A DNA stretch of 45,170 nucleotides from a virus: IMG/VR virus record IMGVR_UViG_3300037486_000106, positions 1 through 45,170 of that record; one strand, 5' to 3'. Of this stretch, positions 6,005 to 36,800 are shown piece by piece. A model generated the notes under the pieces. That model ran no database searches, was not told the origin of the DNA, and saw only the letters and a list, made by a program, of their open reading frames with translations. The position numbers and the translations under genes are program-made. How positions within the stretch are numbered: the first letter of the stretch is position 1; the number at the start of each line of letters is the position of its first letter.

Positions 6005-6328
6005 CTATCCCCCCAGAGCGATCAGCTCCTCGATCAACTGTACCGCCTTCTTACCGAAGGTGGCAACGCCTCGCTCCTTCGCCAGGTCGCGAAGGGCGTC
6101 CCACTTCAGACCGCGAACGTGCTCCTCCCAGGACGGGAGGTCAACAGTTGTTGACCTCGGCTGGGGCGCCGAGTCGTCGATGATCTTGATGAGCCCGGCG
6201 GCGAACCGCGGGTGCTCCTCGATCTTCTCCTGCTCGTGCTTGAGCGCCGTGAAGTAGTGCCCGCCGGTCCACCCCCTGACACCGGCCAGCCTCCCGTTGA
6301 ACGAACCAAAGTAGTGCTTGATGGCCAC
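6005..6328 (-). CDS. Small protein with C-terminal SAP/HeH-like domain
   Basis: This is a 107-residue protein. Residues about 73-104 (LKWDALRDLAKERGV, then KKAVQLIEELIAL) match the helix-extension-helix pattern of SAP/HeH domains, short folds that bind DNA or proteins and are often found in phage head-module proteins. The start is GTG at 6328, with GGAG about nine bases upstream. The gene ends three bases before the adaptor-like gene. A perfect copy of the 22-base palindrome (6137-6158) lies in the linker before the C-terminal domain and encodes RSTTVDL. The function is unknown; a head-tail joining role is possible. Confidence 0.6.
   Translation of the reverse strand: MAIKHYFGSFNGRLAGVRGWTGGHYFTALKHEQEKIEEHPRFAAGLIKIIDDSAPQPRSTTVDLPSWEEHVRGLKWDALRDLAKERGVATFGKKAVQLIEELIALGG
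6137..6158. repeat. Dispersed palindrome, copy 1 (perfect)
   Basis: The sequence is GAGGTCAACA, centre GT, then TGTTGACCTC: two perfectly complementary ten-base arms. It lies inside the 6005-6328 gene. Confidence 0.85.
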
Positions 6329-6345
6329 GATCTGTCTCCAAGAAT

Positions 6346-6368
6346 GGGCCGGGTGCTGTCCCCGGCCC
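6346..6368 (-). terminator. Intercistronic hairpin
   Basis: GGGCCGGG and CCCGGCCC form a perfect eight-base stem with a seven-base loop. It sits in the 54-base gap between the 6383 and 6328 genes. No U-tract follows on the minus strand, so it may be a partial terminator, a processing site or an mRNA stabiliser rather than a full stop. Confidence 0.5.
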
Positions 6369-6382
6369 CGCTGTTGGTCGAG

Positions 6383-6547
6383 TCAGTTCTCGACGGTTGG
6401 TAGAAGCAGCTCGGACTCGAGCCGCTGGATCAGCAGGACGATCTCATCGATCCTTCCTGCAACGACGCCAAGTGCGTGAATCTGCTGAGCCTCAGCGGTC
6501 CTCAGCTCCTCCAGTCGCTTCTTCAGGCTGTCGAGAAGTTCCTGCAT
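6383..6547 (-). CDS. Small coiled-coil protein
   Basis: This is a 54-residue protein, almost wholly predicted helix with heptad-spaced leucines (LLDSLKKRLEELRTAEAQQ, IVLLIQRLESELLL). The ATG at 6547 is chosen because it lies two bases after the upstream gene's TAG with AGGGG before it; the longer reading frame would overlap that gene. No family is recognised. Its place among head genes suggests a structural or assembly helper role. Confidence 0.55.
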   Translation of the reverse strand: MQELLDSLKKRLEELRTAEAQQIHALGVVAGRIDEIVLLIQRLESELLLPTVEN

Positions 6548-6549
6548 GA

Positions 6550-7185
6550 CTAGCCCCTGTTCGTCGCGGCGTTCGTACACATGATGTAGTAGGGAACACC
6601 GGCCTCATTCACAACGCGGATCGAGTGCGTCATGGCCTGCGTGGTGTGCGTCGCGAACACGGTTCCGTTCGACGCAGCCGGAATGACGGCGAGGTTCGAC
6701 ATGCGAACGGTGCCGACATCCACGAAACGAATGAACCCGTGAACGGTTGGGAGCGTGTTGTTGGCCCCGATGAAGGAGTCAACAATCAGCGACGCCACCT
6801 TCCCACTCAGAGTGCGGGTCGCATCAGCGGCCTCGAAGGTCGCCCGAAGACCTGCGCTCTGGCCAGTGGCCGTCGCTCCAACCTGGATCGCGACGGTGGA
6901 GTGGATACCAACCGCGTTGGCGTATCCGGTGCCAGTCACGTACGCGAGAGCCCTGATGGCATCACCGTAGCCTGCGCCAGCGGTCACACCGGCAAGATTC
7001 AAGCGGGCGTACACCGCTCGAGCGTCGCCGCTCACCGCCGTGGTCTTGTGGTACAGGGCGATGAACTTGCGATCGGCCATTGAGGTCTCGACTTCGTTCG
7101 TCGCCGAACCGTAGTCGACACCACCGAATTCGCCACTGTGGCGAACCTTCAGCCTGCCATCGTCAAACCTTGTTCTCAGTCCCAT
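6550..7185 (-). CDS. Head-module structural protein, unknown
   Basis: This is a 211-residue protein rich in Ala, Gly, Thr and Val, with regular beta-like segments (ARAVYARLNLAGVTAGAGYG, ATRTLSGKVASLIVDSF). It is directly downstream of the major capsid gene, where decoration or capsid-accessory proteins often lie. A good ribosome site (TGGAGG) precedes the ATG and falls inside a small TGCCT/AGGCA inverted repeat (7189-7200). Cysteine is nearly absent. I do not recognise a family; a capsid decoration role is a guess from position. Confidence 0.6.
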   Translation of the reverse strand: MGLRTRFDDGRLKVRHSGEFGGVDYGSATNEVETSMADRKFIALYHKTTAVSGDARAVYARLNLAGVTAGAGYGDAIRALAYVTGTGYANAVGIHSTVAIQVGATATGQSAGLRATFEAADATRTLSGKVASLIVDSFIGANNTLPTVHGFIRFVDVGTVRMSNLAVIPAASNGTVFATHTTQAMTHSIRVVNEAGVPYYIMCTNAATNRG

Positions 7186-7202
7186 TTCTGCCTCCAGGCA
7201 AT

Positions 7203-7228
7203 GCCCAGGGGGCCGAAGCCCCCTGGGC
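7203..7228 (-). terminator. Strong hairpin after the major capsid gene
   Basis: GCCCAGGGGGC and GCCCCCTGGGC form an 11-base perfect stem closed by a CGAA tetraloop. It lies 15 bases after the capsid stop codon. There is no U-tract on the minus strand, so partial termination or protection of the capsid mRNA 3' end is more likely than full termination. Confidence 0.6.
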
Positions 7229-7243
7229 GGGTTAGGGCGCTAG

Positions 7244-8584
7244 TTAGGCCAGCGCCGACAGCCCGGTCCACACGGCGTGGACCTCGGGGAGAGCGAGCCG
7301 GAGCCCGCACTCGGTCATGTAGAAGCCCTTCCGGGCGTCTTCACCGGGGAGCTGGACGTTATCCGTCCACGCGGTGTCGCGGCCCTTCATCGACACGTAC
7401 TCGACGTACTTGGTGTCGATGATCAGGACGTCCTGCGTCTGCTGTGCCGACTCGGCGAGCAGCTTGTGGGGGATGATGTTCAGCGTACCGAACGGGCAGC
7501 GGAGCTGGAAGACCTCGAGTCCGTAGGTCTGCTTCTTCGGCAGGGACTCGGCGCTCCAGTTCCAGGTGGAGTTCGTGCGGACCATCTTGTTGAGGATGTT
7601 CAGCGCACGGTAGCCGGACACACCGGCCTTCTCCTTCGACCCGTAGGTGAAGGTGACTTCCATCTCGTCCTCGATGGTGTCGATGTCGACACCGGCCGAG
7701 AAGTCGACGGAGCCCTGGGCCTGCTCGACGAAGTACCGGAACCCACCGGTCGTGCGGGCGTACTCGGCGTCGTTGGCGCCGGAGCCGTAGTCCGCAGTCT
7801 GGATGGCGGTCGTCTCATACGGGACGCCGTTCAGGAGCGCCCACTCGAGCTTCATCATGTGACGCTCGAGGCACTCGCCCTTGAACTGCGGCCACGGCTT
7901 GTACGGCCGGGTCTTCATCTGCTCCGCGGTGCCCGTGATCTTCACGGAGTCCTTGAAGATCCCCGTGTAGTTGGACACGATGCTGGCGCGCTTGGTCAGC
8001 GAGGTCGGAACGAGTGAGCCCTCGTTGTAGACCGAGCCAGCCCACCGAAGAACGGAGCCGTCAGCGACGGTACCGTAGGTCGGGCTACCGGTAGGGTCGT
8101 TGACGTTGGTCGAGCCCCAGTACCGGTACACGGTCATGGTGTCTGCGTCGGTGATCGACGCGACAACCATCAGCTCAGGCCCCTTGATGCCGATCACGGG
8201 GCTTGACTGCGAGCAGTCCGCGGGGTCTTCGACCCGCAGAATGTCGCCAGCCTTGAAGGCCCGCGCCGGGGTGGTGCCCTCATTGGCGTACGCGGCGCCG
8301 TCACCGGACTGGAACACCTCAAGGGTGTCCACTTCCAGGAGGCCGGTGCCAGCGACGAGAGTCCCCTGCACGATGCAGGTCTGCTTGGGCAGACGCCACT
8401 CGAACAGCTTGAACTCAGGGTCATCCGTTGTCGACTCAGGGAGCTTCGACAGGATGTAGGTGAACGGAGACGGACTGTCAGGGAACAGCTCGAAAGCTGC
8501 CTGACGGTAGTTCTTCGGGCGGTAATCCGGGTGCGTCCAATCCCCGGTACCTTCCATCCCAAAGTGGGTTACTTCGACGGCCAT
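7244..8584 (-). CDS. Major capsid protein, SU10 family
   Basis: This is a 446-residue protein. It forms the capsid shell in hexamers and pentamers (HK97 fold). The segment RASIVSNYTGIFKDSVKITG (about residues 200-219) and the following helix (ECLERHMMKLEWALLNG) match the SU10-like major capsid family, where the N-Y-T-x-I-F-x-D signature precedes the spine helix. The C-terminal part also fits: CPFGTLNIIPHKLL, VLIIDTKYVEYVSMKGR and the final GFYMTECGLRLALPEVHAVW. An insertion near residues 75-175 with AGDILRVEDP is probably the surface-exposed domain. It is preceded by the scaffold gene and flanked by hairpins on both sides. Its ribosome site GGAGG (8590-8594) is inside a stem. Confidence 0.88.
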   Translation of the reverse strand: MAVEVTHFGMEGTGDWTHPDYRPKNYRQAAFELFPDSPSPFTYILSKLPESTTDDPEFKLFEWRLPKQTCIVQGTLVAGTGLLEVDTLEVFQSGDGAAYANEGTTPARAFKAGDILRVEDPADCSQSSPVIGIKGPELMVVASITDADTMTVYRYWGSTNVNDPTGSPTYGTVADGSVLRWAGSVYNEGSLVPTSLTKRASIVSNYTGIFKDSVKITGTAEQMKTRPYKPWPQFKGECLERHMMKLEWALLNGVPYETTAIQTADYGSGANDAEYARTTGGFRYFVEQAQGSVDFSAGVDIDTIEDEMEVTFTYGSKEKAGVSGYRALNILNKMVRTNSTWNWSAESLPKKQTYGLEVFQLRCPFGTLNIIPHKLLAESAQQTQDVLIIDTKYVEYVSMKGRDTAWTDNVQLPGEDARKGFYMTECGLRLALPEVHAVWTGLSALA

Positions 8585-8588
8585 TTCT

Positions 8589-8613
8589 TCCTCCAGTAGT
8601 CGTCACTGGAGGA
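8589..8613 (-). promoter_or_regulatory. Hairpin sequestering the capsid gene ribosome binding site
   Basis: On the leftward mRNA, bases 8613-8605 (TCCTCCAGT) pair perfectly with 8597-8589 (ACTGGAGGA) around a seven-base loop. The second arm contains the GGAGG that lies five bases before the capsid ATG. The element fills most of the 35-base gap after the scaffold stop. Translation of the upstream gene could open the stem, linking capsid and scaffold output; this is inference. Confidence 0.6.
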
Positions 8614-8619
8614 GGCTGG

Positions 8620-9723
8620 TTACCTTCCGAAGGACTGCGCCCGTGACTCGTGGAGTTCCTTCTTCAGTTGCTCGAATTCGTTCGGCGCCGCCGCGTTACC
8701 GGTAGCCTTCCTCGACGTCCCTCCGCCACCAGACGCCATCTTGGCGCGATCCCGAGTGTCGGGAGCTGCGGCGGTCGTAGTCTCCTTACGAAGGTGGCGC
8801 GTGGCGGTCCTGTAGGCCGCGTACGCTCCCTTCAAGGTTTCCGGGTCGGACAGCTCGGTCACGATGTCCAGCTTCTTCCACGGCTGTCTGTTCTCTTTCG
8901 AGGACATCCAGTCGATGAAGGTCTGGCGCTCGGTCGCGTCAGCGAGGGGAGCGTACAGCTCATCGGACGCCAGCGACTGCATGGAGCCGTGGAGTCTCTC
9001 GAACCCCGTTGTGCGCGACGTTGTCGCTTCCTGCATCCCGACCCACTCCTTCGTCTCCTGGACCGCCTTGACAAGACCGGCCCCAACCATCCGCATGGTC
9101 TCGAGCTGGTGGGCGATATGAGAAACGAAGCGCGGGTACGCCTCAACGATGTCTGGCTCAAAGGAGCCTGACTCAGCGAGCTTCTTCAGAACCGGCACGT
9201 ACGATCTCTCCACGTTGTCGCCGAAGTCCTTGGGAGTTACCTGGGGACCTTCAGGCTCGGCGGGCTGCTTGGGCACACTGGCCTGCATCTCCCTTACCTT
9301 CGCCTCGAGCTTCTCCTCGAACTCCCGCTTCAGCTCGTTGTAGAGCTTCGCGTTGTGCATCTCCTGGTGGTCACGGGTGATGACCTTCCCGATAAGACCA
9401 GCTTCCTCCAACTGCGCGGCAGTTACTTTCTGCCCACGCAGCGCGCCGTACATCTCCTGATCGGGTACGGTGTACAGCTTGACCTGTGGAGTACCGTCCT
9501 GAACCGGTGGAGTGTCAGCCGGAGTGCCGGGCTCGAAGGTTTCCTTGGCTGAATCGTCTACGGGCTCCGGTGGTTCGGTTTTGGCTTCGCTCTCGAGCGT
9601 AGCTTTCCCGTCACCGTCGTCGTCACGATCCCGCTGGTACCGCGCGCCCTGGAACTCCTTCTGAAACTTCTCGATTTCAGAAGCCGGGTCCTCGGTCGTT
9701 GCCTGTGTTTCAAGGTCAGGCAT
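8620..9723 (-). CDS. Probable scaffolding protein
   Basis: This is a 367-residue, highly charged protein. Residues 1-70 are acidic and low-complexity (E/P/D-rich). A helical coiled-coil centre follows (LYNELKREFEEKLEAKVREM, near 127-146). A long helical middle and a basic, Gly/Ser-rich tail (RAKMASGGGGTSRKATGN) lead to a final helix (FEQLKKELHESRAQ). An acidic N-terminus, a helical core and a basic C-terminal helix placed directly upstream of the major capsid gene are the usual marks of phage scaffolding proteins, which shape the procapsid and leave before packaging. The ribosome site is AAAGGAGAGG. The call rests on composition and position. Confidence 0.7.
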   Translation of the reverse strand: MPDLETQATTEDPASEIEKFQKEFQGARYQRDRDDDGDGKATLESEAKTEPPEPVDDSAKETFEPGTPADTPPVQDGTPQVKLYTVPDQEMYGALRGQKVTAAQLEEAGLIGKVITRDHQEMHNAKLYNELKREFEEKLEAKVREMQASVPKQPAEPEGPQVTPKDFGDNVERSYVPVLKKLAESGSFEPDIVEAYPRFVSHIAHQLETMRMVGAGLVKAVQETKEWVGMQEATTSRTTGFERLHGSMQSLASDELYAPLADATERQTFIDWMSSKENRQPWKKLDIVTELSDPETLKGAYAAYRTATRHLRKETTTAAAPDTRDRAKMASGGGGTSRKATGNAAAPNEFEQLKKELHESRAQSFGR

Positions 9724-9758
9724 TTACCTCTCCTTTCGTGATCCCGCTAGGCAGGTCG

Positions 9759-10118
9759 TCACAGTTGGCCGACAGCGTCGGGTTGGCCGGAATGGCTCCC
9801 GTCTGATTCGGCGTTGATCTCTTCAAGGGCTTCATGGAAGTCCTTTCTCCTGGCCTCATAGTCATCCACAAACGCAAGGTCTGTCAAGAGCTTGTTCATT
9901 TTGGCCTGAAGTTCACCAAGAATGAACACGGCGACGTGGGGCGCGTCCTCCCTTGGGTTGTAGGCCAGCGCGTTCCCCATCTTTTCCTCAACGCCCCGCA
10001 GTAGACCGCGGACGTACGTTGAGTCACTGAGGTTGTTGATGGCTTCGTTGTACGCCGGTTGGTTCTCATCGAACCACCGACGCTCTTCGTTGAGGTACTG
10101 CTCCTGCTCTGGCGTCAC
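9759..10118 (-). CDS. Small acidic helical protein between portal and scaffold
   Basis: This is a 119-residue protein, acidic and mostly helical (EQYLNEERRWFDENQPAYNE..., FVDDYEARRKDFHEALEEIN). No family is recognised. The start is GTG at 10118, overlapping the portal's TGA (GTGA) with a G-rich ribosome site before it, which implies translational coupling to the portal. It is probably a head-assembly accessory protein. Confidence 0.6.
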   Translation of the reverse strand: MTPEQEQYLNEERRWFDENQPAYNEAINNLSDSTYVRGLLRGVEEKMGNALAYNPREDAPHVAVFILGELQAKMNKLLTDLAFVDDYEARRKDFHEALEEINAESDGSHSGQPDAVGQL

Positions 10119-12157
10119 ATTCCCCCCTGCATCGGAACCATGTTACCGGCCTGCACGCCAGAGGCAATCTGCTCAGGACCCATGACCTCGGTGCTACCGG
10201 CGACCATCGGCGGAGGCATCGGCTGGGTCTGGAAGTAGAACTGATCGAAGTAGTCCACCCCCAGGGCGCGCACAAGCTCGTTGAAGATGGCGTGCGGGTT
10301 GAGCGCCCGCCCGTCAGGCATCGGGTTGAGAAGCTGAGGCGCCGTGGACAGCGTCTGCATGATGTTGCCCCACACGGAGGCGTTGCGGGCCGGATCCTTC
10401 GCCATCGTCGGGGTACGCACCAGGTACTCGTACTCGCCCTGGAGGTCCATCCCGCGGATGGCCTCGAACGGAGCGCCACCCATCGACGGCGGACCCATCC
10501 CCATCTGACCACCGAGCTGCTCGACCAGCCGCCCGGTCAGCATCACCATCTCCTTGACGTCAGCGAACTGCTTGATGTTCTCCACCGCGGCCTTCATCGC
10601 AGGCCCAACGAGCTGGCTGTCGATGAGCTGCGCGGTCGTTCCGATGCGGAGCGTCGCTGCGTTCGACAGATTCTCGATCTCGCCGAGCGTCCGCTTCGTC
10701 GGGAGCGGCATGCCGCCGACGCTGTCAGGCGTCGCCGCCAGGCGCTGCGCGCTGTTCAGGAGGTAGTTGTGGAACTCAAGGTGAGATGACGTGATGTTGG
10801 AAAGCTGGAGCTGCGCGTACATCTGGTTGATGCCGAGCCGCCCCGTCTTGTGGAGCGCCTTCCCCTCGCGGGTGAGCCTGATGATCTTCCCAGGCGCCGG
10901 GTTGGCGAAGTCTGCGCGGTTGATCAGGTCATCGTTGATGATGGCTTGGTCGTTCACTGACTTTTTGGTGTTGGTGATGTGAGAGTTGATGAACCAGTTG
11001 TCGGCGCGCTGCATCCCGAGCAGCAACTGGGCGGTGCTCGGCACCCACGGTGCGTGCATGTCGAGGTCGCCGTGCGCCGTGAAGTAGGTGAACGAGTCCC
11101 CGTGGTTCTGCTCGAGCTTGTGAGCCCGAACGATCACGTGCTCGTTGACGACGCTGAACTGCCAGATCTCCTGCTCGGAGGCCGGGCTCAGGCCAAGCTC
11201 TGAGGGGATGATCTTCCACTGGATGTTGGCCATCTCCAGCAGCGGATGCGGGTCCCTGGACTTGTAACCGTAGGTCCCCTCCATCCATCGGCCGTCGTCC
11301 TTCCGTCGCTTGTAGTCCTGGCTGGAAAGTTCGCGGCACCTGTCGACGTTGATGTACGGCCCCTGGCGCCGCTCCAGTCGACCGGCGTCAAGCTCGAGCC
11401 AGTTGACGTAGGCAACGTCTCCGATGTACTCCATGTTGTACCACTGCGCACTCGGAACTGAGTTGTCGAGAATCATGTTGCGCGGATCGATCGTGTTCAC
11501 TCTGTTGCCCTGCGTCCGCACCTGTTCGACGGGGTCGCCTGGGTTGATCCCGCGCATCATCATCTCTTCAGGTGCGTAGATCTTCCAGGCTGGAACGATC
11601 TCGTACGTCTCACGCCACCCCAGCGACCACATGCAGATCCCGTAGCGCTCCACGTCGTAGAGCGCCTGCCAGACCTGGTGTTCGATTCTGGAGTCGCGGC
11701 AGTCTTTGTTCAGACGCGCCTCCATGAGGCGGGCTTTGCGGAACCCATCTGAGCTGTAGCTCTCCAGGTGGGCGAAGGGGTCGGTACCGGTGAGAATGTT
11801 GAAGTTGTGGGCGAGGCGCGTCTGGATGATGTGATAGATCAGCGGGACAGCGACCTGCCCCTTGAACGGCATCTCCTTCTTGGTTGGGTCCTTGGTCTTG
11901 TCTCCGCGCGTGGCAGGAGCCGACAGGTCGAGGTAGAGACGGTTGTACTTGTCGACCTCATCCCAGTCATCGTAGCGCTGGCGGATGTGGCGGTCGGCGT
12001 CGCGGATGATGTCGATCAGCTTGGCGAGGATCTCTCCATGGAGCCCGTTCGGGTTGTCCGCGTCGAGTTTTACATGCAGCGGCTGATCCACCGACTCGAT
12101 GGTCTCGACCTCCAGCCCCTCGTCGTCCGTCCCTTGCGGGATGTCTTGAAACTCCAT
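10115..12157 (-). CDS. Portal protein
   Basis: This is a 680-residue protein. It forms the dodecameric ring at the capsid vertex through which DNA is packaged and ejected. The N-terminal helical segment with DADRHIRQRYDDWDEVDKYNR and the later stretches PFKGQVAVPLIYHIIQTRLA, DRHIRQRYDDW and VVNEHVIVRAHKLEQNHGDS are of the type seen in large podovirus portals. A long helical stem/crown region follows (NTKKSVNDQAIINDDLINRAD; LEFHNYLLNSAQRLAATPDS). The C-terminus is Met/Pro/Gly-rich (QPMPPPMVAGSTEVM), a common feature of portals. Size, gene order (terminase side, portal, scaffold, capsid) and composition agree. The ribosome site is AAGGAG before the ATG at 12157. Confidence 0.82.
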   Translation of the reverse strand: MEFQDIPQGTDDEGLEVETIESVDQPLHVKLDADNPNGLHGEILAKLIDIIRDADRHIRQRYDDWDEVDKYNRLYLDLSAPATRGDKTKDPTKKEMPFKGQVAVPLIYHIIQTRLAHNFNILTGTDPFAHLESYSSDGFRKARLMEARLNKDCRDSRIEHQVWQALYDVERYGICMWSLGWRETYEIVPAWKIYAPEEMMMRGINPGDPVEQVRTQGNRVNTIDPRNMILDNSVPSAQWYNMEYIGDVAYVNWLELDAGRLERRQGPYINVDRCRELSSQDYKRRKDDGRWMEGTYGYKSRDPHPLLEMANIQWKIIPSELGLSPASEQEIWQFSVVNEHVIVRAHKLEQNHGDSFTYFTAHGDLDMHAPWVPSTAQLLLGMQRADNWFINSHITNTKKSVNDQAIINDDLINRADFANPAPGKIIRLTREGKALHKTGRLGINQMYAQLQLSNITSSHLEFHNYLLNSAQRLAATPDSVGGMPLPTKRTLGEIENLSNAATLRIGTTAQLIDSQLVGPAMKAAVENIKQFADVKEMVMLTGRLVEQLGGQMGMGPPSMGGAPFEAIRGMDLQGEYEYLVRTPTMAKDPARNASVWGNIMQTLSTAPQLLNPMPDGRALNPHAIFNELVRALGVDYFDQFYFQTQPMPPPMVAGSTEVMGPEQIASGVQAGNMVPMQGGM

Positions 12158-12166
12158 GAGATCTCC

Positions 12167-13834: not shown

Positions 13835-13837
13835 GAG

Positions 13838-14224: not shown

Positions 14225-14233
14225 TTGTTCCTC

Positions 14234-17936: not shown

Positions 17937-17958
17937 GAGGTCAACAAGTGTTGACCTC
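17937..17958. repeat. Dispersed palindrome, copy 2 (perfect, intergenic)
   Basis: The arms GAGGTCAACA and TGTTGACCTC flank the centre AG. This is the only copy in a clearly non-coding region. Confidence 0.85.
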
Positions 17959-18088: not shown

Positions 18089-18631
18089 CTACAGGACCTC
18101 AGCATCTACCACCTCGGCTGGATCGTAGCCTGCGGTAAAGCGTGCGTGCTCGGGCAGTGCGCTCGGATCCTCACGCGGAGGCATCAGCTCGACGACCACA
18201 TTGACGCGGTGCGAGGACTCCACACGCACGTGCTCGCCGTAGCGATCGCGGCGCGCGGCCTTCAGGTAGAAGATGCGCGCGATCGTGTTCGCCGAGGACG
18301 GGTTCAGGCACTGGTCGTAGAGCACGTCCTCGACCGCATCGATGCGGCCCTCCAAGATCTCGTGCCACGCGTCGGCGAAGAGCGCGTCGCGCTCGGCCGC
18401 GGTGTTGACCGCACGCCGGGAGATGCCGCAGGCCTTGCATGCCAGGTACACGTTGCCGCGCTCCTCCAGACACTCAAGCCACCTGCGCTTCTCTTCAAGC
18501 GTGAACGACTCAAGCTGCGCCTCGACCTTCAAGATCACGGCGCGCGCCACGTCGCCGTCGACCATCGCGCGCCGCAGTGCGGTCGCGCTACTCTTCGCGA
18601 GGTTCGAGGCCTTCAGGTCAGCTTCACCCAT
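18089..18631 (-). CDS. terS: Probable terminase small subunit
   Basis: This is a 180-residue protein. The segment ERGNVYLACKACGISRRAVNTAAERDALFADAW (about residues 72-104) has the helix-turn-helix pattern of phage small terminases, in which 'G-N-V-x-x-A-C-x-x-x-G-I-S-R-x-x-V' is followed by 'x-x-D-x-x-F-x-x-x-W'. This subunit binds the packaging site and regulates TerL. Helical flanks and an acidic tail fit the family. GGAGG precedes the ATG at 18631. It is separated from TerL by about 2.4 kb of small zinc-type genes. Confidence 0.72.
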   Translation of the reverse strand: MGEADLKASNLAKSSATALRRAMVDGDVARAVILKVEAQLESFTLEEKRRWLECLEERGNVYLACKACGISRRAVNTAAERDALFADAWHEILEGRIDAVEDVLYDQCLNPSSANTIARIFYLKAARRDRYGEHVRVESSHRVNVVVELMPPREDPSALPEHARFTAGYDPAEVVDAEVL

Positions 18632-19715: not shown

Positions 19716-19790
19716 GTGCAACGAGAGCGGCCCACAGAGTGGGGCCGCTCACGCCGCCTTCAGGCGAGCACACACGGAGGTGTTGTCATG
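19713..19790 (+). repeat. Stop-to-start intergenic cassette 1
   Basis: The cassette begins at the stop codon with TGAGTGCAACG. A terminator-like hairpin follows (GAGCGGCCC/GGGCCGCTC, 19725-19750), then a small hairpin (CGCCT/AGGCG, 19755-19766). A leader ending GGAGGTGTTGTCATG supplies the ribosome site and start of the next gene. Confidence 0.65.
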
Positions 19791-20303
19791 AGCATTCAGT
19801 ACAGGATTAAGGTGCGGAACGAGGACATGCCGAGCCGCTACGTGGTCAAGCTCGGGTGCTGGTCGAAGCTGGTCTTCGACAACATCAAGGACGCGACGCG
19901 CTGCTACGAGGCCTGCGCCAAGGCGCTCGGCTCCATCAAGAGCCACACGTTCAACCTGACCGTCGACGGCAAGGAGTACGACGCGGTGCGCGACGTGGTC
20001 ATGCCGCTCGGCGACGACCTGACGCTCCAGACCGAGCCGATCGGCACCGAGGGCGAGGTCGCCTGCAACGGGACCTGGGAGAGGTACTACCTGTGCGACG
20101 GCGTGCCCAAGGGCAACGGCGGCTACTGCTCGTGCTGGCGCACGATCGACGCCGACGAGTACGACGAGTGCCTCGACATGCAGCGGAGCGACAACGCGTG
20201 GCAGGCCTACGAGTCCGGCGGCACCAGGCACATGTGCCCCACGTGCCAGGGCAAGCAACTGACCGTGACCACCGAGGTCGTGACCAAGGTGTCCGGTTGC
20301 TGA
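19788..20303 (+). CDS. Early protein with cysteine clusters, unknown
   Basis: This is a 171-residue protein. The start at 19788 is set by the GGAGG in the cassette; the longer frame begins before the hairpins and is unlikely. The N-terminal half is beta/alpha (IQYRIKVRNEDMPSRYVVKL, a segment of the kind seen in small phage proteins of unknown role). The C-terminal half has scattered Cys (YCSCWRT, CPTCQG), which may bind zinc. No family is recognised. Confidence 0.6.
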   Translation: MSIQYRIKVRNEDMPSRYVVKLGCWSKLVFDNIKDATRCYEACAKALGSIKSHTFNLTVDGKEYDAVRDVVMPLGDDLTLQTEPIGTEGEVACNGTWERYYLCDGVPKGNGGYCSCWRTIDADEYDECLDMQRSDNAWQAYESGGTRHMCPTCQGKQLTVTTEVVTKVSGC

Positions 20304-20376
20304 GTGCAACGCGCAGGGCCGCTACATGCGGCCCTGTTCGCTGCCCTTAGGGCAAGCACAAGGAGGTGTCGTCATG
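20301..20376 (+). repeat. Stop-to-start intergenic cassette 2
   Basis: It begins TGAGTGCAACG at the stop codon. CAGGGCCGC-TACAT-GCGGCCCTG (20314-20336) is followed by GCCC-TTA-GGGC (20343-20353), then a leader ending GGAGGTGTCGTCATG. GTTGC/GCAAC (20296-20310) also pairs across the stop codon. Confidence 0.7.
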
Positions 20377-21128: not shown

Positions 21129-21242
21129 ATGAAACCGCAGCGCAACGGCGAGGACTGGGCCACGATCCTCTACTGGGTCTTCGTGGCCCTGTGGTGCGCG
21201 GTCGCTCCGCTCGGGCTTCTGGTCTATGAGCTACTGACCTGA
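21129..21242 (+). CDS. 37-residue single-pass membrane peptide
   Basis: This gene was translated by hand. It begins ATGAAACCG two bases after the ParB-like gene's stop and ends at TGA (21240-21242), where cassette 3 starts. A polar N-terminus (MKPQRNGEDW) is followed by a 24-residue hydrophobic helix (ATILYWVFVALWCAVAPLGL, then LVYELL). Small membrane peptides of phages can be holins, antiholins or superinfection-exclusion factors; here the role is open. Confidence 0.55.
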   Translation: MKPQRNGEDWATILYWVFVALWCAVAPLGLLVYELLT

Positions 21243-21313
21243 GAGCATCGTGCAGGGCCGCTACATGCGGCCCTGTCCGTTGCCCTTGAGGGCACAAAGG
21301 GGGTGTCGTCATG
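21240..21313 (+). repeat. Stop-to-start intergenic cassette 3
   Basis: It begins TGAGAGCATCG at the stop codon. The same CAGGGCCGC-TACAT-GCGGCCCTG hairpin as cassette 2 (21253-21275) is followed by GCCCTT-GAGGGC (21282-21293), then a leader ending GGGGGTGTCGTCATG. Confidence 0.7.
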
Positions 21314-24336: not shown

Positions 24337-24635
24337 CGCCAATCCTCCGGTCCACAGAACTTCTCGATCTCGAACTTCAGGTACTGAATCGCCTTCTGGA
24401 GATCGAGGACCTTGTGACCCTTGTGGTTGCACCGGCAGATGTACTTGATCGCGTTGCCGAGCGCGTAGTCGAGCTTCTGGTCTACGATGAAGTCGATCAC
24501 CTCGATCTTGCCGGTGGTGTAGTGTTCAGGGTGAGCCACCTCGTTCCTCTCCGCCCCACACCACGGGCAATCTTCATGTCCATTACCTTTGGCCCAGCCA
24601 CAGTAAGGGCAGAACAGTTCTTCCTCGTTGCTCAT
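24333..24635 (-). CDS. DUF3310 protein with N-terminal zinc ribbon
   Basis: This is a 100-residue protein. CPYCGWAKG and CPWCGAE form a zinc ribbon in the first 30 residues. The following HPEHYTTGKIEVIDFIVDQK and NAIKYICRCNHKG, with LDLQKAIQYL, match DUF3310, a common phage family often labelled nucleotide kinase without firm proof. ATG at 24635 overlaps the helicase stop (ATGA). The fusion to a zinc ribbon is seen in some phage members. Confidence 0.85.
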   Translation of the reverse strand: MSNEEELFCPYCGWAKGNGHEDCPWCGAERNEVAHPEHYTTGKIEVIDFIVDQKLDYALGNAIKYICRCNHKGHKVLDLQKAIQYLKFEIEKFCGPEDWR

Positions 24636-26230
24636 GTCCACATCACCTTTCTCTCGCCAGGTACCGTGACCATGACGAGCCTGTGCTTGGCTCGAGACGC
24701 ACCAACGTAGAACGTGCGAAGCAGGCCATCGCGTCCGAGCCGGTTGTTCTTGTTGCGGTACGCCTCGGGGCTGACGTACGGGAGGAGGTACACCGTGTCC
24801 GCCTCACCACCCTTCACGCTGTGAATTGTACCAACAATCAGCTTCGGTGTCGCGTAAAGGGCGTCCCTTCCGAGCTTGTCGAGCACGCGCTTGATGTAGC
24901 TCATGGACGAGATCGTGCCACCGTAGCCGAACTTGATGCTTTCCTTGAGCGCGGAGAAGAACGCGTTGTGATCTCCGGCCTTCGCGGCCTCGAAGAAGCC
25001 GCTCAGCTCGTCGCAGTCTATCGCCTCGGCGGGCATGATAGAGCGCGAGTGTGCGTTACAGCGAAGCTGCGTTATCACGCTTTCCGGGGCTTTTCGTAGC
25101 ATCGATACAACACGGTAGGCCTGGGACCAGGTCCACATTTGTTGACCTTCGCTCGGCATAAGGAAGCACCGGTAGGCGTCAGCGTACTGGGTCTTCAGTG
25201 GGTTCCAGGTCTTTCCTTCTGACCGGCTGCGGTACGGGTTGTGGTACGGGACGCCGTCAGCGCGGAGCTGATGGAGGAACTTGTTGAGCATGTAGCCGCA
25301 ACTGGCAAGCAGCATGACACTAGAAATGTCACCATCATCAAGGTCACGGTGCAGACCATTCATGAAGTTGAGAACACTAGACTTAACGACTGTTCCACCG
25401 TCACCAACTGGGTCGAAGTTTTTCGTGATCTTGACCGAGATTTTGTCACCGAACTTCTTCGCCCTGTCGTAGATAGCACGGCTCATGCGGTAGCTGCGTG
25501 GCAGCACGTACTGCTGCTCGGGCGGGGCGAACTCGATGAAGTCCTTGACGCTGGCGCCACGCCACTCGTACAGGGCCTGCTGGTCATCGCCAGCAACGAT
25601 CGTCTTCTCGGTGGTCAGGGACCACTGCTTGATCAACCGCATCTCGAGGCGGCTCAGGTCCTGGGCCTCGTCCACGAAGATGTACCGCGGCGCCGCCGGG
25701 TGCTGCTGGCAGGTCGCCGTTGCCCGCACGATCAGGTCCGTGAAGTCGGACAGACCGTTGACCTCCTTCCAGGTTGTCCACTGGGAGTAGAACCTGAGCA
25801 CCTCCTTCGGCCACTCAGTCGTCGGCTGCTCCATGGCGCGACGCCGGTCGCACTCCGCAAGCAGCCGCATGGCGTTGTTGGTGCCCTCAGAGTCGTAGAG
25901 TGCGTTGCCGAGGTTGAGCGGCAGCTTCCGCTTTGTGGTGCGGTTGAAGTCACGGATCAGGTCCTCGTCGTACACCAGGCGCACGGAGTCACCGATGGTC
26001 TGCAGCGCACGCAGCGCGAGGGCGTGGACCGTGCCGACGTGTGGGAACTCAATGCCTTGCACCTTCAGCTTCACACGCTCAGCGATCTCGTGAGCCGCGG
26101 TCCTGGTGAGCGAGCAGATCAGGATGTCTCCTCCGTACAGGTTTTCTTCCACGGCCCGCGCGATGCGGCCCACAAGCGCGGTCGTCTTGCCGGAGCCGGG
26201 GGCGCCCAGGATGGTGTAGTGGTTGCTCAT
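24632..26230 (-). CDS. UvrD/Rep-type SF1 DNA helicase
   Basis: This is a 532-residue ATP-dependent 3'-5' type helicase. Walker A is GAPGSGKT at 9-16, motif Ia TRTAAHEI near 42-49, Walker B YIFVDEAQDLSRLE at about 183-196 (DEAQ 187-190), and motif III AGDDQQALYEWRGA at 213-226. Motif IV is LPRSYRMS, motif V GTIHSVKGGEADTVYLLP, and motif VI YVGASRAKHRL near the C-terminus. It is shorter than cellular UvrD (about 720) and appears trimmed in the 2B region. It probably unwinds DNA in replication or recombination. ATG at 26230 follows GAGGTG. Confidence 0.92.
   Translation of the reverse strand: MSNHYTILGAPGSGKTTALVGRIARAVEENLYGGDILICSLTRTAAHEIAERVKLKVQGIEFPHVGTVHALALRALQTIGDSVRLVYDEDLIRDFNRTTKRKLPLNLGNALYDSEGTNNAMRLLAECDRRRAMEQPTTEWPKEVLRFYSQWTTWKEVNGLSDFTDLIVRATATCQQHPAAPRYIFVDEAQDLSRLEMRLIKQWSLTTEKTIVAGDDQQALYEWRGASVKDFIEFAPPEQQYVLPRSYRMSRAIYDRAKKFGDKISVKITKNFDPVGDGGTVVKSSVLNFMNGLHRDLDDGDISSVMLLASCGYMLNKFLHQLRADGVPYHNPYRSRSEGKTWNPLKTQYADAYRCFLMPSEGQQMWTWSQAYRVVSMLRKAPESVITQLRCNAHSRSIMPAEAIDCDELSGFFEAAKAGDHNAFFSALKESIKFGYGGTISSMSYIKRVLDKLGRDALYATPKLIVGTIHSVKGGEADTVYLLPYVSPEAYRNKNNRLGRDGLLRTFYVGASRAKHRLVMVTVPGERKVMWT
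25128..25149. repeat. Dispersed palindrome, degenerate copy
   Basis: CAGGTCCACA, centre TT, then TGTTGACCTT: 17 of 20 arm bases match the consensus. It lies in the helicase gene in a different reading phase from the other coding copies, so it is the least certain member. Confidence 0.45.
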
Positions 26231-26485
26231 GCGCACCTCACAGCGGGTATAGGGTCTAGTGGATGAAAGTTGAGATCCGTCTCAAATAAGGCGGCTACTC
26301 CGCGCGCGAGGCGCTCAACCACCCGTGGGAAAGTGCCAAAATGGCACGAAATATAGTATAAAATAGACGTAAATAGGATAAAATATAGAACGTAAACTAC
26401 TGAAAACAAGCGGGTATATAGTAAAATAGAACGAAGTGCCGTTCCTATCCGATGTTTTCTTTGGTGGGATTTCCCTAATACCCGG
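26231..26485. other. AT-rich intergenic region, candidate replication origin
   Basis: In this GC-rich genome, 26347-26433 is strongly AT-rich. It carries three near-direct repeats of TAAAATA(TA)GA(A)CG at 26359-26369, 26379-26392 and 26422-26433. A perfect inverted repeat GTGCCA-AAA-TGGCAC (26333-26347) lies at its left edge. It sits between the primase and helicase genes. It could also contain the helicase promoter. Iterons, AT-richness and neighbours together suggest an origin; this is inference. Confidence 0.45.
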
Positions 26486-28824: not shown

Positions 28825-28826
28825 TC

Positions 28827-28848
28827 GAGGTCAACAGGTGTTGGCCTA
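28827..28848. repeat. Dispersed palindrome, near-perfect copy at a gene end
   Basis: GAGGTCAACA, centre GG, then TGTTGGCCTA: two arm differences, one of them the T/C change seen in other copies. The last three bases are the stop codon of the 28846 gene read on the minus strand. Confidence 0.7.
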
Positions 28849-29574
28849 GTACGGGATCTCGGATGAGGTCTCTTCGGCCACCTGGGAGAAGACCATAGCG
28901 AGGCCCTTGTAGATGCCGAAGGCGGATACCTTCTCCTCCTCATCCAGCAGGCGGATGAAGGACGGCGAGATCTTGGCGTAGTCGATGCCGCTCTTGCTCC
29001 TCTCCTTCACGAGCTTGAAGGAGCTGACGGCGTGGAAGTAGGGCACCTTCTTCGACGTGAGCCGGAGGAGGTACTTGTCGACCTCGCGCACGCTCGTCGG
29101 GGGGACGTTCATCACGAACGGGAGCATGGCCTCCGGCGGGAGCACCATGAGGAGCTTCCGCTGTGAACAGGCCTGCCCGCCGGTCTCCTCGTTGGACCCC
29201 CACTGCGACATGGGGCAGTCGGAGCACCGCCCGCCGTACCCGCATCCGGGAACGTCGGGGATGCCGTAGATGCCGTCCTTGGAGGCGCAGTTGGGCGGCT
29301 CGTTGCCACCGTCGTACTTCTCCTTGTAGTAAGAGCGGATGTTCTGGACACCGACCACGACGCCGGTCAGCTCCTTCTTCGGCTCGGGCTCGCCATCGAG
29401 GCCTGGGACCTCCCACGACAGGGCGCCGCCGCTCGGGACCTTGACGCGGTCGAGCATCGAGGGGTCGACGCCGTTCCCGCCCATGTTGATGTTGACGATG
29501 TCCTGGAGACCGAAGTCACCTTCGGCCGGGACCAGGGCGGCGAACGTACCTGCCTTCGCGAGCTTGTCGGACAT
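28846..29574 (-). CDS. Probable single-stranded DNA-binding-like protein with Cys cluster
   Basis: This is a 242-residue protein. A central cysteine set (NCASKDG, GCGYGGRCSDCP, ACSQRK, about residues 94-137) looks like a metal site. It is followed by LLMVLPPEAMLPFVMNVPPTS and a strand-rich region with YFHAVSSFKLVKER. This layout recurs in phage replication proteins often linked to ssDNA binding. The C-terminus is acidic, as is usual for such proteins (EEETSSEIPY-like tail). A GGGAGG site precedes the ATG. The family call is tentative. Confidence 0.55.
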   Translation of the reverse strand: MSDKLAKAGTFAALVPAEGDFGLQDIVNINMGGNGVDPSMLDRVKVPSGGALSWEVPGLDGEPEPKKELTGVVVGVQNIRSYYKEKYDGGNEPPNCASKDGIYGIPDVPGCGYGGRCSDCPMSQWGSNEETGGQACSQRKLLMVLPPEAMLPFVMNVPPTSVREVDKYLLRLTSKKVPYFHAVSSFKLVKERSKSGIDYAKISPSFIRLLDEEEKVSAFGIYKGLAMVFSQVAEETSSEIPY

Positions 29575-29586
29575 GTGGCTACCTCC

Positions 29587-30111: not shown

Positions 30112-30121
30112 GTTACCTCCT

Positions 30122-30135
30122 GCCACGGTCGTGGC
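30122..30135. repeat. Short inverted repeat before the secreted-protein gene
   Basis: GCCACG-GT-CGTGGC is a perfect six-base inverted repeat in the 50-base gap before the ATG at 30111. It may be an operator or leader stem. Confidence 0.35.
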
Positions 30136-30161
30136 GTTGTTCCATGGTACACGAACGCTGG

Positions 30162-31256: not shown

Positions 31257-31257
31257 G

Positions 31258-31638
31258 TCAATCCTCCCAGTTGAGTGGTACCCGGACGAACAGGCGCCCG
31301 GTTGAGTCCGATGAGCTGAGCACTAGTGTGCGGTGACGCAGCGCGTGTAGTCCGACAACCTTCGCTGGGGTGACGATCAGCCCGACCCTTCCGTTGCGCA
31401 TCAGCCGGATCTTGTAGCCGGTCCCCTTCTGGAACCTGGCGCTCCCGACATCGACGCCCTCCCCAACGAAGAGGTCAATGTAGTGGTCACCCGGATACCA
31501 CTTCAGTTTCTTGAGCAGTGACTCCCCGATCTCCCAGTGTGCCTTCCTCGTGCCGTGCCGACCGAGATGCACCGCGAGCGTGACATCATCAGGGCCGGTC
31601 TTGTACTGCGTGTAGGGCTCGATTGCCTTGAAGCTCAT
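31258..31638 (-). CDS. Small beta-rich protein, unknown
   Basis: This is a 126-residue protein (DDVTLAVHLGRHGTRKAHWE, YIDLFVGEGVDVGS, YKIRLMRNGRVGLIV). It resembles small phage proteins with AbrB-like or OB-like strands, but I cannot assign it. ATG at 31638 overlaps the HNH gene's stop (ATGA); the long upstream frame lies over that gene. Confidence 0.55.
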   Translation of the reverse strand: MSFKAIEPYTQYKTGPDDVTLAVHLGRHGTRKAHWEIGESLLKKLKWYPGDHYIDLFVGEGVDVGSARFQKGTGYKIRLMRNGRVGLIVTPAKVVGLHALRHRTLVLSSSDSTGRLFVRVPLNWED

Positions 31639-32048
31639 ACCGTCCCCCATCCGAGAACGAATCGGTGTCTCCACATGTGGCAGTCGCGGCACAACCACAT
31701 CACGTTGAGCCAGTCTTTCTGCTGGTAGCTGTCGTGATGTGCATGGATGTCGTCCGTTCGTCCACACCGCTCGCACGGGAGCGGAGTCAGTTTCCCATTG
31801 CGAACGGCGTGACGAGCGGCGGACTGCGCAGCCGTGTGCTGAGTCTGGTTGGAATGACGCTGCCTGGTAAGTTCTCTGTGCCTCTCCCTGTAGTCCTTGT
31901 TTTCGGAAAAGCGCTTCTTGAAGACAGCTTTCTCGCAATCAATACAATTGGAGTTGGTGTAACCAGAACTTCTGAAATAGAAATTCTCCATGGTCATTGG
32001 AAGCTCTCGTCCGCACCCCTTACACGTCTTAATGTCAATCAAGATCAT
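31635..32048 (-). CDS. HNH endonuclease
   Basis: This is a 137-residue protein. An N-terminal zinc ribbon (CKGCGRELP, CIDCEKAVF) is followed by a C-terminal HNH core: CERCGRTDDIHAHHDSYQ (paired His) and NVMWLCRDCHMWRH (Asn, final C-x2-C-H). Such enzymes are often homing or packaging-linked nucleases; here it sits in the replication operon and overlaps the SNF2 stop by four bases. It may be a free-standing homing enzyme that entered the operon. Confidence 0.85.
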   Translation of the reverse strand: MILIDIKTCKGCGRELPMTMENFYFRSSGYTNSNCIDCEKAVFKKRFSENKDYRERHRELTRQRHSNQTQHTAAQSAARHAVRNGKLTPLPCERCGRTDDIHAHHDSYQQKDWLNVMWLCRDCHMWRHRFVLGWGTV

Positions 32049-33679
32049 CCGAGTTCCTCCAGTATGGCCTCGATCACGTCCTTGCGCTTTGCGAGCGCCT
32101 TGTTGATGGTCTCATCGATGGTGCCCTTCGCGATGAGGTGGATGTACGTCACGTGTTCCTGCTGCCCAGGACGGTGGACGCGCGCCAGGCTCTGCTCGTA
32201 CGACCCGAGGTTGAAGTCCTTCGACAGGTAGATGCAGTACCTGGCCTGCACCATGCTGATGCCGACCCCACCGGCCTGGATCTGCACGGCAATGACCGCG
32301 GGCATACCGTCACGGCAGGACTGCTTCCACTCCTCAAGCTGCTTGCTCTCTCCAGACAGCTCAAAGCTGGGTCTCCCGTACTTGGCGCACACCTCGCGAA
32401 CGATCCGCAGGTCGCACTTGAACCGGCAGAACACAACCGCTGGCTCTCGGATGTCTTCGAGCACGTCGAACAGCAGACCCATCTTCGAGGTCCCAACCTC
32501 GGTGTCCGTGCCCATGGTGTTCCGTACAGATCCCTGAACGATCTGCGCCAGCCGCAGCAGCTTCACCAGTGCGTTGCTCGCCGTTATGGTGCCTCCCTTC
32601 ACCTCGGCGATGAAGTTGGTCTTCATGTCTTCGTAGACGCTCTTCTCGGCGCCGTCCAGCTCGCAGTACCGGTTGGTGTGTACCACCTCCGGTAGGTCGA
32701 GCACGTCGTCGCTCTTCACCTGGATTGCCAGGTTGTGGAACTTGTCGTTCCAGTCTTCCGTGTTCTTGAACCCGAGGGTCTGGTAACCACCGAACCCCCC
32801 GGTGATGATGTACTGCGACTTGTAGATCTGGTGGTTGCAGCCCCACACGGATGGGTCGATGAAGCGCGCCTGGGCGAACATGTCGTCGATGCTGTGTGGG
32901 CACGGGGTCCCGGTGAGCGCGAGTCGGAACGTCTCCGGCTTGTTCTTCGGGATCCCTCCAAGGAAGCGCGACAGCTTGCCGCCGGGACTCTTCGCGCGGT
33001 GGCTCTCATCGACGATGATCATGTCGAACCACTCCTTGAGCACGAAGTCACGGAAGGGCTGGCGCCACACCGCCTCGTGGTTGATGACGATGACACCTTC
33101 TTGACCACGGTCACGCAACCACGCCATGGCGTACTTCTGACGTGACTCAACGCTGTGCTTGCGCGAGCATACGAGAACGCCAGCGGCGGCGCCGTGAACG
33201 CTGAACTCCTCCGGCCATACGTCCATCACCGACACCGGGCACGTGATCAGCACGCGCCTGCACTTCAGGGCCGTGATGAGGTCGATGGCCACCTTCGACT
33301 TGCCGGTGCCCATATCGAGGGCCAGCATCGCCCCGCCCTTCGCGCGCATCCGGTTGAGGGCGAAGTGGTACGCCTGTAACTGGTGCAGCCAGGGCCTGGT
33401 GCGCATGTGATCAGGGATCGGCAGGTCAACCTCGCGCTTCGCGGCCAGGGCCACGCTGAGCGCCTTCTCCTGTTCGGCGAGGTCAACAAGTGTTGGCCTC
33501 ACGTCGGCAAACGGGAACATGTGCGTCAGCAGGCGGTAGGACTCGAGCGTCCTGGGGAAGGTCCAGGACTTGCTGTCCGCGTCCCACCACCGGCCAGGGA
33601 TGACCTTGAGCACGTCCTTGATGGGGTACGTATCACCAGTGATAGCGATGCGGTCGCCGATGCCGTCGATGTGCAGCAT
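32045..33679 (-). CDS. SNF2-family DNA helicase/translocase
   Basis: This is a 544-residue protein. An N-terminal domain (residues 1-60, GDTYPIKDVLKVIPGRWWDA and SKSWTFPRT) resembles the HARP-like module seen in SMARCAL1-type and phage SNF2 proteins. The ATPase core has DMGTGKSKVAIDL (motif I), a MIIVDESHRAKSP box (motif II, DESH), ALTGTPCPHS (motif III), and helicase-C motifs with QAGGVGISMVQARYC and SLARVHRPGQQEHV. It probably remodels forked or branched DNA together with the VRR-NUC enzyme. ATG at 33679 follows GGAGG; a GTG at 33709 would lie upstream of the expected transcription start. Confidence 0.9.
   Translation of the reverse strand: MLHIDGIGDRIAITGDTYPIKDVLKVIPGRWWDADSKSWTFPRTLESYRLLTHMFPFADVRPTLVDLAEQEKALSVALAAKREVDLPIPDHMRTRPWLHQLQAYHFALNRMRAKGGAMLALDMGTGKSKVAIDLITALKCRRVLITCPVSVMDVWPEEFSVHGAAAGVLVCSRKHSVESRQKYAMAWLRDRGQEGVIVINHEAVWRQPFRDFVLKEWFDMIIVDESHRAKSPGGKLSRFLGGIPKNKPETFRLALTGTPCPHSIDDMFAQARFIDPSVWGCNHQIYKSQYIITGGFGGYQTLGFKNTEDWNDKFHNLAIQVKSDDVLDLPEVVHTNRYCELDGAEKSVYEDMKTNFIAEVKGGTITASNALVKLLRLAQIVQGSVRNTMGTDTEVGTSKMGLLFDVLEDIREPAVVFCRFKCDLRIVREVCAKYGRPSFELSGESKQLEEWKQSCRDGMPAVIAVQIQAGGVGISMVQARYCIYLSKDFNLGSYEQSLARVHRPGQQEHVTYIHLIAKGTIDETINKALAKRKDVIEAILEELG
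33479..33500. repeat. Dispersed palindrome, near-perfect copy in the SNF2 gene
   Basis: GAGGTCAACA, centre AG, then TGTTGGCCTC: a single arm difference (T to C class). It encodes RPTLVDL in the linker after the N-terminal domain. Confidence 0.75.
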
Positions 33680-33699
33680 GCCCACTTCCTCCGACACAC

Positions 33700-33729
33700 A
33701 TTCTCGCACACCTTTGTATGCTATGTCAA
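33700..33729 (-). promoter_or_regulatory. Leftward early-type promoter for the DNA-metabolism operon
   Basis: On the minus strand, TTGACA (33729-33724) is followed after 18 bases by GAGAAT (33705-33700). The spacer has GCATACAAAGGT, shared with the rightward promoter at 18665. The predicted start leaves a very short leader before GGAGG and the ATG at 33679. Confidence 0.6.
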
Positions 33730-33733
33730 TAGG

Positions 33734-33772
33734 GCAAAAAGGTGGCCCCCGGAGCTAGGCTCAACGGGGGCC
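33734..33772 (-). terminator. Rho-independent terminator of the internal-protein operon
   Basis: On the minus strand, GGCCCCCG and CGGGGGCC form an eight-base stem, extended inside by GAGC/GCTC, and are followed by ACCTTTTTGCCC. It separates the 2968-residue gene from the promoter of the SNF2 operon. Confidence 0.85.
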
Positions 33773-33804
33773 GGAAGGAGGTGAGCACACGCAGACACTA
33801 TACA

Positions 33805-36800
33805 CTACCTCTCTTCCGCTTGCAAGTACCTCTTCACGAAGGCGCGCTGGACCGCAAGCGCCCTGTCCCTGGCCTCCTTGCTGTCCGAGTCCGGGCGCTT
33901 GCGCCAGTCACGCAGCAGCCGCTGTGCGCGCTCCGACTCCTTGACGAGCCCGAGCTTCCAGCCGTGCTTCCGATCCCAGCGGGCGTAGTCCTCAGCGTCG
34001 CCGTTCTTCTTGAGGTACTCCCGCTCCTCCTCGGCACGCTGCACGTCGTCCACCGCGTCGTAGAACTCGCCTGGCACGTAGTACTGCGGGGAGGTCTCGG
34101 ACAGGAAGCGGCGCAGGATCATCCAGTCGTTCCATACCGTCTCCTCACCCGTGATCAGCTTCTTCCCAAGATCGAACGGACGCTGGGCGAAGAACTTCCC
34201 GGCCGGGCCGATGTAGCTGTCCAGCACGTAGGCCAGCGCGTTGGCGTTCAGGTCGATGACACCAGGGCGGTACTCCGACCCACCTGTGAGCTGGTTCAAC
34301 TTCTCCGTGGCGGCGATGAGCACCTTCTCACTGGCCGTCTTCGCAGGGTAGTGGCGGGCGGAGTCGGAGCGCTTGTCCCACGGCGCCTGCATGGGGTAGA
34401 TGCGTCCGCCCCAGTAGGTCTCGTTGGCCAACACGTCGGTCCACGGCTCGATCAGCGTGGGGATGATCGGCCGCGTCATGGCGTAGCCGCTCTTCTCGAA
34501 GCTGGTCTCTCCCAGCGGCGAGAAGTGTGTGGTGAGCCCGGCGAGCATGCGAACCGCGGCCTCACCCGCGGCCTCGCCGCGGTCCTGGCCGGAGAACATC
34601 ATGTGCTCCAGCTCCTTGCCGAGCTGAGCCCAGATGCCGAACCCGTAGGGCAGCGAGATCTGGACGAACTCGCCGTCCGTGCCGGGGATGCCGAGGATCC
34701 AGTGGCGGAGCTTCGTGAAGTTGGTGACCTTGTCGTACCGGTCCTCACCGTCATCGTCGTCACCCATAACGGCGCGCGACCATACCGACGTGAGGAACCC
34801 GAGGCCGACGTAGAACGCGGCCAGCTTCTTCCCGGCCGGGGTTTGCATGGACTTGAAGAACCGGTCGACGCCCTGTACCCCAGCGTTGAAGAACAGGTAC
34901 ATGGCCCCAACGGCCCCGCCGATGTCGCCGCGCCGGTTGAAGTTGACGGTGATGTTCTTGGCCAGGCTCGCGGCCTTGGCCTTGCTCGCGCCGTGGCGCT
35001 GCGCCACGACGTAGGTGGCGAGTCGAAGGCCGTTCTCCGTGGCCTCGTTGATGGCTCCGATGTAGTTGCCGACGTTGCGCAGCCCACGCATCGTGGTGGC
35101 AACGGCGCCCGAGTTCATGTTGCTCAGGATGGCCTTCTGCATGTCCTCGATGCCGTTCATCCCGAAGAAGCCGATGCGCGCTCCGGTCTCCTTGAACTCG
35201 TGGTACGCGTCCGTGTAGTCGTTTGTCAGGAAGCCGAAAGTGTCAGGGAAGTTGGCCGCGAGGATCCCGCGCACCGCCCTGCTGGACTCCTTCGCCACCT
35301 CAGCCGCGGCCTTCGCACCCATGTCGGTCGACGCGGAGACGATCGCCTGCTGCCAGTCACGGGCGAAGTTGGTGAGGATGAACTCCGGCGACCAGGTGGT
35401 GTAGAGCTGCGCCATGGTGCGCATGACGGCGCGCACCGCGCGGACCCACTTCCACAGGTTCTCCACACCGAGGCCCTTCATGGCCTCGATCATGTAGCGG
35501 TCCTTGAGGTGGATGTAGAACGTCTCGCCGTTGCGCTTGGCTCCGACGACGTTGGCCTGCTGGTTGGCGAGCCAGTCCTGCACCTCGTTGACCACCCCGG
35601 TCTTCTTGTCGTAGACGCGCTTCTTGACCTCCTTGTTGACCTCCCACAGGTTATCGTTGGGGTGGGCCTCGGCCAGCTCGAGGAGCGCTACGGCCACGCG
35701 GTTGCGTTCGATGAGGTCCACGGCGCGCATGGCGTCGACGAAGGACTGGGCGAGGATCGGGTTGACCTTCGAGTCCTCCTCGCGCCCGGTGACGAACGGG
35801 AGCGCGGCCCCGCGGACATCGAAGCCAGGAGACGACGGGTAGAACCCGTACAGCTCGATGACCTCCTCGATGTCGCCCTCGGAGCCCCGGCCCTTGAGCG
35901 GCACGTAGTGCTTGTACCGCCCCATGGTGTTGTCGTACTCCTTCTGCGTGATGATCCCCGCGGCCACCCACGCCTGCATGCGCTCCGTGAGCATGGGGTA
36001 GACGTACTGACCGGCCAGCTTCCCAAACTCCCCGATCAGGCCCTCCTGACGGGTCTGCTGCATGATGACGTCGGCCTGCGTGTCGGAAAGACCGGAGTTC
36101 AGCTCCTTCTGGTTCGTGACGGCAACAATCCGCTCCTCCAGCTTCACGAGCTTCGCTTCCCAGCGCCGGATGGAGTTATTGAGCCGGTCGATGTGCGCCT
36201 GGTCCGTGGCGCTGGCCAGCTCGTCATTCAGGACCTGGAGCTTGTCCTGGAGCTTGCCCTTGCGGAGCTGGAGCAGGGTCAACTTGCGCTCACGCCACAC
36301 CTCACGGATGTGGGCGTTGCGCTCCTTGGCGTGCGCGGCGTGCAGATAGAGGTCGAACTTCTTCAAGATCTCGGTGTAGGATTCGGGCCTGCTCGCGGCC
36401 AGCTCGCGCAGGGCGAGCATCAGGGGCTGTTGGTACTTGGCGGCGATGCGAAGGGTGGCCTCCTGCACCTTGCCGTGGTACAGCTCCTCGGCAAGGCGAA
36501 CGTCCAGTCCCTCGCCAAGGAAGATCCCCTCGTCCTCGAACATGTCGTTCAGGCGCTTGAAGCGGATGAAGCTGTCCTGGACCTTCTTCACGAACCAGTC
36601 CCAGCGGTCAGATCTCGGAAGGCTCCACCCTGGGCCGGAGCCGGTGGCGTACTGCGTACCGAACTCCTGCTCGTCATCCACGACCTGCATCTCGCCAACC
36701 GGCGGGCCTGGGCTCCTGTAGCTGACGGAGAACTGCGGACGCCGGGGTCTCGTGGCGACGAGGCCAACAGATGTTGACCTCACCTCCTCAAAGTACTGAG

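Follow-up and report, generated by a model that had tools for sequence, protein, structure and literature searches.

A dispersed palindrome family in a tailed phage lineage and an orphan ParB-like protein as its candidate binder

The chromosomal cell-division factor Noc has an N-terminal membrane-binding helix, and many palindromic sites for it are scattered over the chromosome. It is an orphan relative of ParB; phages and other mobile elements often carry orphan ParB-like proteins, most of them uncharacterised (PMC12704722). Dispersed sites for ParB-family proteins have been described on the linear prophage N15, the plasmids RK2 and pSM19035, and the Myxococcus plasmid pMF1, in the last case also inside ORFs; N15 and pMF1 additionally encode a ParA partner (PMC3235114). 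KorB of RK2 acts over long distances as a clamp that slides from distal OB sites, which are 16 bp long, lie upstream of promoters and work with a KorA partner (PMC11790492). Phages offer a further comparison in the stoperators of Cluster A mycobacteriophages, 13-bp asymmetric sequences that lie in one orientation, are mainly intergenic, number 24-34 per genome and are bound by the lysogeny repressor (PMC3029335).

The palindrome family described here comes from an uncultured bacterial virus, record IMGVR_UViG_3300037486_000106, which was analysed in its entirety (45,170 bases) and is referred to below as the window. Like the sites of N15, RK2, pSM19035 and pMF1, its copies are scattered over a mobile replicon and, as on pMF1, occur inside genes, but the site sequence differs from that of all four. 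Two other viral contigs with the motif emerged from a collection scan, and searches with the ParB-like protein and the terminase recovered the same lineage, so that three independent genomes were available: the window, G001 (37.8 kb, ~72% DNA identity) and G002 (22.6 kb); two further contigs, 99.9% identical to G001, were left out of the counts. Both relatives are incomplete, and the window and G001 jointly span ~49.5 kb. Because G001 links the end of the window to its start through ~4.3 kb that the window lacks, the genome is ~49.5 kb long and circular or circularly permuted. A search of INPHARED with positions 1-25000 of the window found no near DNA match. The portal protein (10115-12157, minus strand) resembles that of phage SU10 (PF23899, E 1.9e-8), which suggests a podovirus-like particle. 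Near the left end, positions 276-617 comprise two tandem 171-nt copies that are 74% identical.

With zero to three arm mismatches, six copies of GAGGTCAACA-NN-TGTTGACCTC are spread across 30.6 kb of the window (Table 1), and GAGGTCAACANNTGTTGACCTC with ≤3 mismatches likewise gives six matches. No place in the window has four or five mismatches, the counts at six to eight are background, and a blind repeat search grouped the identical six copies as one family (D2). All six copies lie exactly where the first-pass annotation had placed them, and they have 0, 0, 3, 2, 1 and 1 arm mismatches in the order of Table 1. That annotation had doubted that such a repeat would recur by chance, and had proposed counting it against shuffled sequence and searching related phages for it. 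Both checks bear this out: 100 dinucleotide-preserving shuffles gave 0.00 expected copies against six observed, which together with the empty four- and five-mismatch classes rules out a chance origin, and the two independent relatives carry six (G001) and two (G002) copies. Merging the genomes gives ~8 site places per ~49.5 kb, namely 6137, 17937, ~22.2 kb, 25128, 28827, 33479, 36760 and one in the piece missing from the window.

Table 1. Palindrome copies in the window, the genes that they lie in or touch, and the candidate binding proteins.
Feature	Positions	Strand	Sequence	Arm mismatches	Remarks
107-aa gene of the structural region	6005-6328	-			Contains site A, read as RSTTVDL
Site A	6137-6158	.	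GAGGTCAACAGTTGTTGACCTC	0 (perfect)	
Site B	17937-17958	.	GAGGTCAACAAGTGTTGACCTC	0 (perfect)	Intergenic, downstream of the small terminase gene
Small terminase subunit with HTH	18089-18631	-			phrog_4044, E 6.7e-13; rival candidate binder
ParB-like protein, longer form, 266 aa	20326-21126	+			
ParB-like protein from the likelier start, 250 aa	20374-21126	+			Proposed binder of the sites
UvrD-like helicase gene	24632-26236	-			Contains site D, read as GQQMWTW
Site D	25128-25149	.	CAGGTCCACATTTGTTGACCTT	3	
Site E	28827-28848	.	GAGGTCAACAGGTGTTGGCCTA	2	Final three bases are the stop codon of the next gene listed
Gene ending at site E	28846-29574	-			
SNF2-type helicase gene	32045-33709	-			Contains site F, read as RPTLVDL
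Site F	33479-33500	.	GAGGTCAACAAGTGTTGGCCTC	1	
Giant gene	33805-42711	-			Contains site G, read as RSTSVGL
Site G	36760-36781	.	GAGGCCAACAGATGTTGACCTC	1	

For four of the six window sites, G001 has a counterpart in the corresponding position; the other two, F and G, fall in regions outside the DNA covered by the relatives' contigs. The G001 counterparts of site A (G1r 11754) and of site E, the latter at the identical stop codon, show 20/20 arm identity; that of site D is CAGGTCCACAGTTGTTGACCCC; and site B has counterparts in both relatives, with surrounding flanks that align poorly. There is also turnover. The ~22.2-kb site, beyond the 3′ end of the plus-strand operon, occurs in G001 and G002 and is absent from the window, and no G002 counterpart of site A was found. 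The site in the ~4.3-kb missing piece lies inside a 137-aa gene of G001. Across seven orthologous site pairs the arms are 92% identical (129/140), the centre bases 36% (5/14) and, in ungapped comparison, the 20-bp flanks 37% (104/280), a contrast that is partly ascertainment, as it is the arms by which a site is recognised and not every pair is independent; the matching of positions between genomes is not selected for by site recognition. Among the 28 half-sites of the three genomes, positions G3, G4, C6, A8, C9 and A10 are invariant and position 1 varies most. The T/C change remarked on earlier is confirmed at position 5 (T in 21 half-sites and, occasionally, C, in 7), and the centres are as variable as was first described, their two bases being essentially random. 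As observations on the surrounding DNA, a protein with an ArdC-type anti-restriction N-terminal domain (L018, 9959-10915, minus strand) adjoins the 22.2-kb site of G001 and was not found at the matching place in the window; a GC-rich hairpin lies 3′ of gene 28846-29574 (minus strand); and the 2968-aa product of the giant gene matches uncharacterised giant phage proteins (phrog_14770, phrog_616) over its C-terminal third.

The placement of the copies indicates what is conserved. Coding copies occupy two reading frames and the others are non-coding: RSTxVDL or a close variant is encoded in three window genes, GQQxxT in the helicase and in a small gene of G001, and stop codons are overlapped by site E and its counterpart and by the 22.2-kb site in both relatives. 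Since the sites keep neither to one reading frame nor to coding sequence, some falling at stop codons and some between genes, selection acts on DNA and not on peptide or RNA. The initial proposal that a dimeric protein binds these palindromes is well supported by their symmetric, invariant arms, their free centre and a conservation independent of reading frame. Simple operators, which had been offered as one form that such binding might take, appear unlikely because most copies are inside genes (four of six in the window) or at gene ends.

On the present sequence evidence, the ParB-like protein is probably the best candidate binder. Its likelier start is position 20374 because a ribosome-binding site, AAGGAGGTG, lies ahead of that ATG at 20360-20368. 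The protein has a ParB/Srx-type N-domain followed by a helix-turn-helix and matches ParB-like PHROG families (E 6.5e-6 and 1.3e-5) and a cyanobacterial plasmid ParB (5e-12); the Pfam ParB model did not match it, with only weak HTH matches found, a PDB sequence search gave no useful match, and no match to it was found in INPHARED. Its AlphaFold model is of modest confidence (mean pLDDT 59.9; ~75-88 across most of residues 21-160), and Foldseek aligned this model to Noc, ParB-CDP and KorB (from KorB-KorA) with probability 1.00 over ~150-160 columns. The best structural match of the model is Noc (7nfu; the Noc proteins compared are those of Bacillus and Geobacillus), which it would also resemble as an orphan ParB relative; unlike Noc, it has no evident membrane-binding helix, and the site sequence differs. 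The predicted fold is matched by KorB as well (8qa9), but the phage palindrome is longer than OB, most of its copies fall within a gene or at the end of one, and a KorA-like partner was not identified. G001 and G002 encode orthologues with 70% and 58% identity, with 20/26 and 23/26 identical residues in the HTH stretch against 164/235 and 116/214 in the rest; all three proteins share a GG-x-HR stretch and, further along, a DN-xx-HGL stretch. No site was seen adjoining the ParB-like gene's own promoter. A 49-bp repeat with a GC-rich hairpin (20300-20348 and 21239-21287; 90% identical), with a similar hairpin near 19716-19790, precedes genes of the short plus-strand operon, just upstream of ribosome-binding sites; these are possibly processing or terminator elements.

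A partition-type site had been among the first suggestions, and this suggestion held in part. A ParB-family site seems the best fit, because all three independent genomes with the site family also encode a predicted ParB-fold/HTH protein. Active partition is not indicated, because no ParA-type ATPase (PF13614), the partner encoded with ParB in ParABS systems and by N15 and pMF1 (PMC3235114), was found in the window, G001 or G002 by a search that matched 14/14 control genomes, unless the phage borrows a host ParA. The only proteins returned by an HTH-based search were two distant ones, on contigs without the motif, and one of these has a long C-terminal extension. Neither the ParB-like protein nor the sites were found in distant terminase relatives (22-40%), which is weak support because these contigs are fragments and far away.

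As the three genomes belong to one lineage, co-occurrence does not single out ParB among the shared genes. The main alternative binder is the small terminase subunit because it, too, is present in all three: it has an HTH-type match, and site B lies ~130 bp beyond its stop codon. We consider it rather unlikely that the sites are bound by such another phage protein, be it the terminase, for which they would be genome or packaging marks, or a small repressor that escaped recognition and acts in a stoperator-like manner. Packaging signals usually lie at one place, against ~8 sites here, and the packaging or methylation mark first suggested for the palindromes gained no specific support, the terminase remaining a candidate binder. 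For a repressor, several small phage genes are without annotation and stoperators set a precedent for many sites of a phage protein scattered over a phage genome (PMC3029335); the palindromes, however, are symmetric over 20-bp arms and half are in genes, unlike the short, oriented stoperators, and most small genes of the plus-strand operon were not found in G002.

Binding by a host protein, such as a regulator or nucleoid protein put to use by the phage, appears less probable still. In some actinobacteria (L108, L109, L111, L114, L116, L086) the core palindrome adjoins a TetR_C_16 regulator or FAD_binding_3 monooxygenase gene, probably as the operator of the adjacent TetR_C_16 regulator, and its position between these two kinds of gene implies that a sequence of this kind can serve dimeric repressors of cells. 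When 84,980 bacterial and archaeal species were searched, in a scan that a looser host motif would escape, there were nevertheless just 84 stretches, one per record, with no dispersed family, ruling out a host-wide motif. Unannotated small proteins or a host protein are possible but less likely binders. Many of the 84 stretches look like terminators, and similar palindromes serve as such in AT-rich bacteria; some phage copies adjoin stop codons as well. That the phage copies are themselves intrinsic terminators, a repeated peptide motif or chance is nonetheless highly improbable. T tracts follow 0/14 copies and T/C changes in one arm leave an unpaired position in one strand, which argue against an RNA hairpin or terminator; the two frames, seen within long genes, and the copies between genes rule out a peptide motif; and none is expected by chance. 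The 20-mer core also occurs, once per contig, in four other viral contigs, which were taken as chance or unrelated.

The explanation that we favour, with somewhat better than even confidence, is that the palindromes are dispersed sites, ~8 in a genome of ~49.5 kb, at which the orphan ParB-like protein encoded by the phage itself binds. A ParB-like dimer would read two AGGYCAACA half-sites; the site, with two 9-bp half-sites and a free centre of 2 bp, exceeds the KorB operator (16 bp) in length, which is a point against. By analogy with Noc and KorB, each site would load nucleotide-bound clamps that slide into adjacent DNA, and the scattering of sites would give the protein access to most of the genome. 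Its most probable use would be long-range control or organisation of phage DNA, by silencing it or by keeping copies compact or apart, over ParA-driven partition. More tentatively, and as a possibility that we would not yet call probable, an orphan ParB-type sliding clamp loaded at ~8 sites may coat, silence or organise the genome of a tailed phage without ParA during infection.

The first-pass annotation knew of no described phage system with this sequence. Against the collections searched, the sequence of the site is indeed new, as is its pairing in this lineage with an orphan ParB, and they do not form a new category because dispersed ParB-family sites are already known from N15, RK2 and pMF1 (PMC3235114). 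In this lineage a sharply defined, conserved candidate target occurs together with an orphan ParB-like protein and, if the proposed pairing is true, would provide a compact case of a role for a ParB clamp without ParA in a virus.
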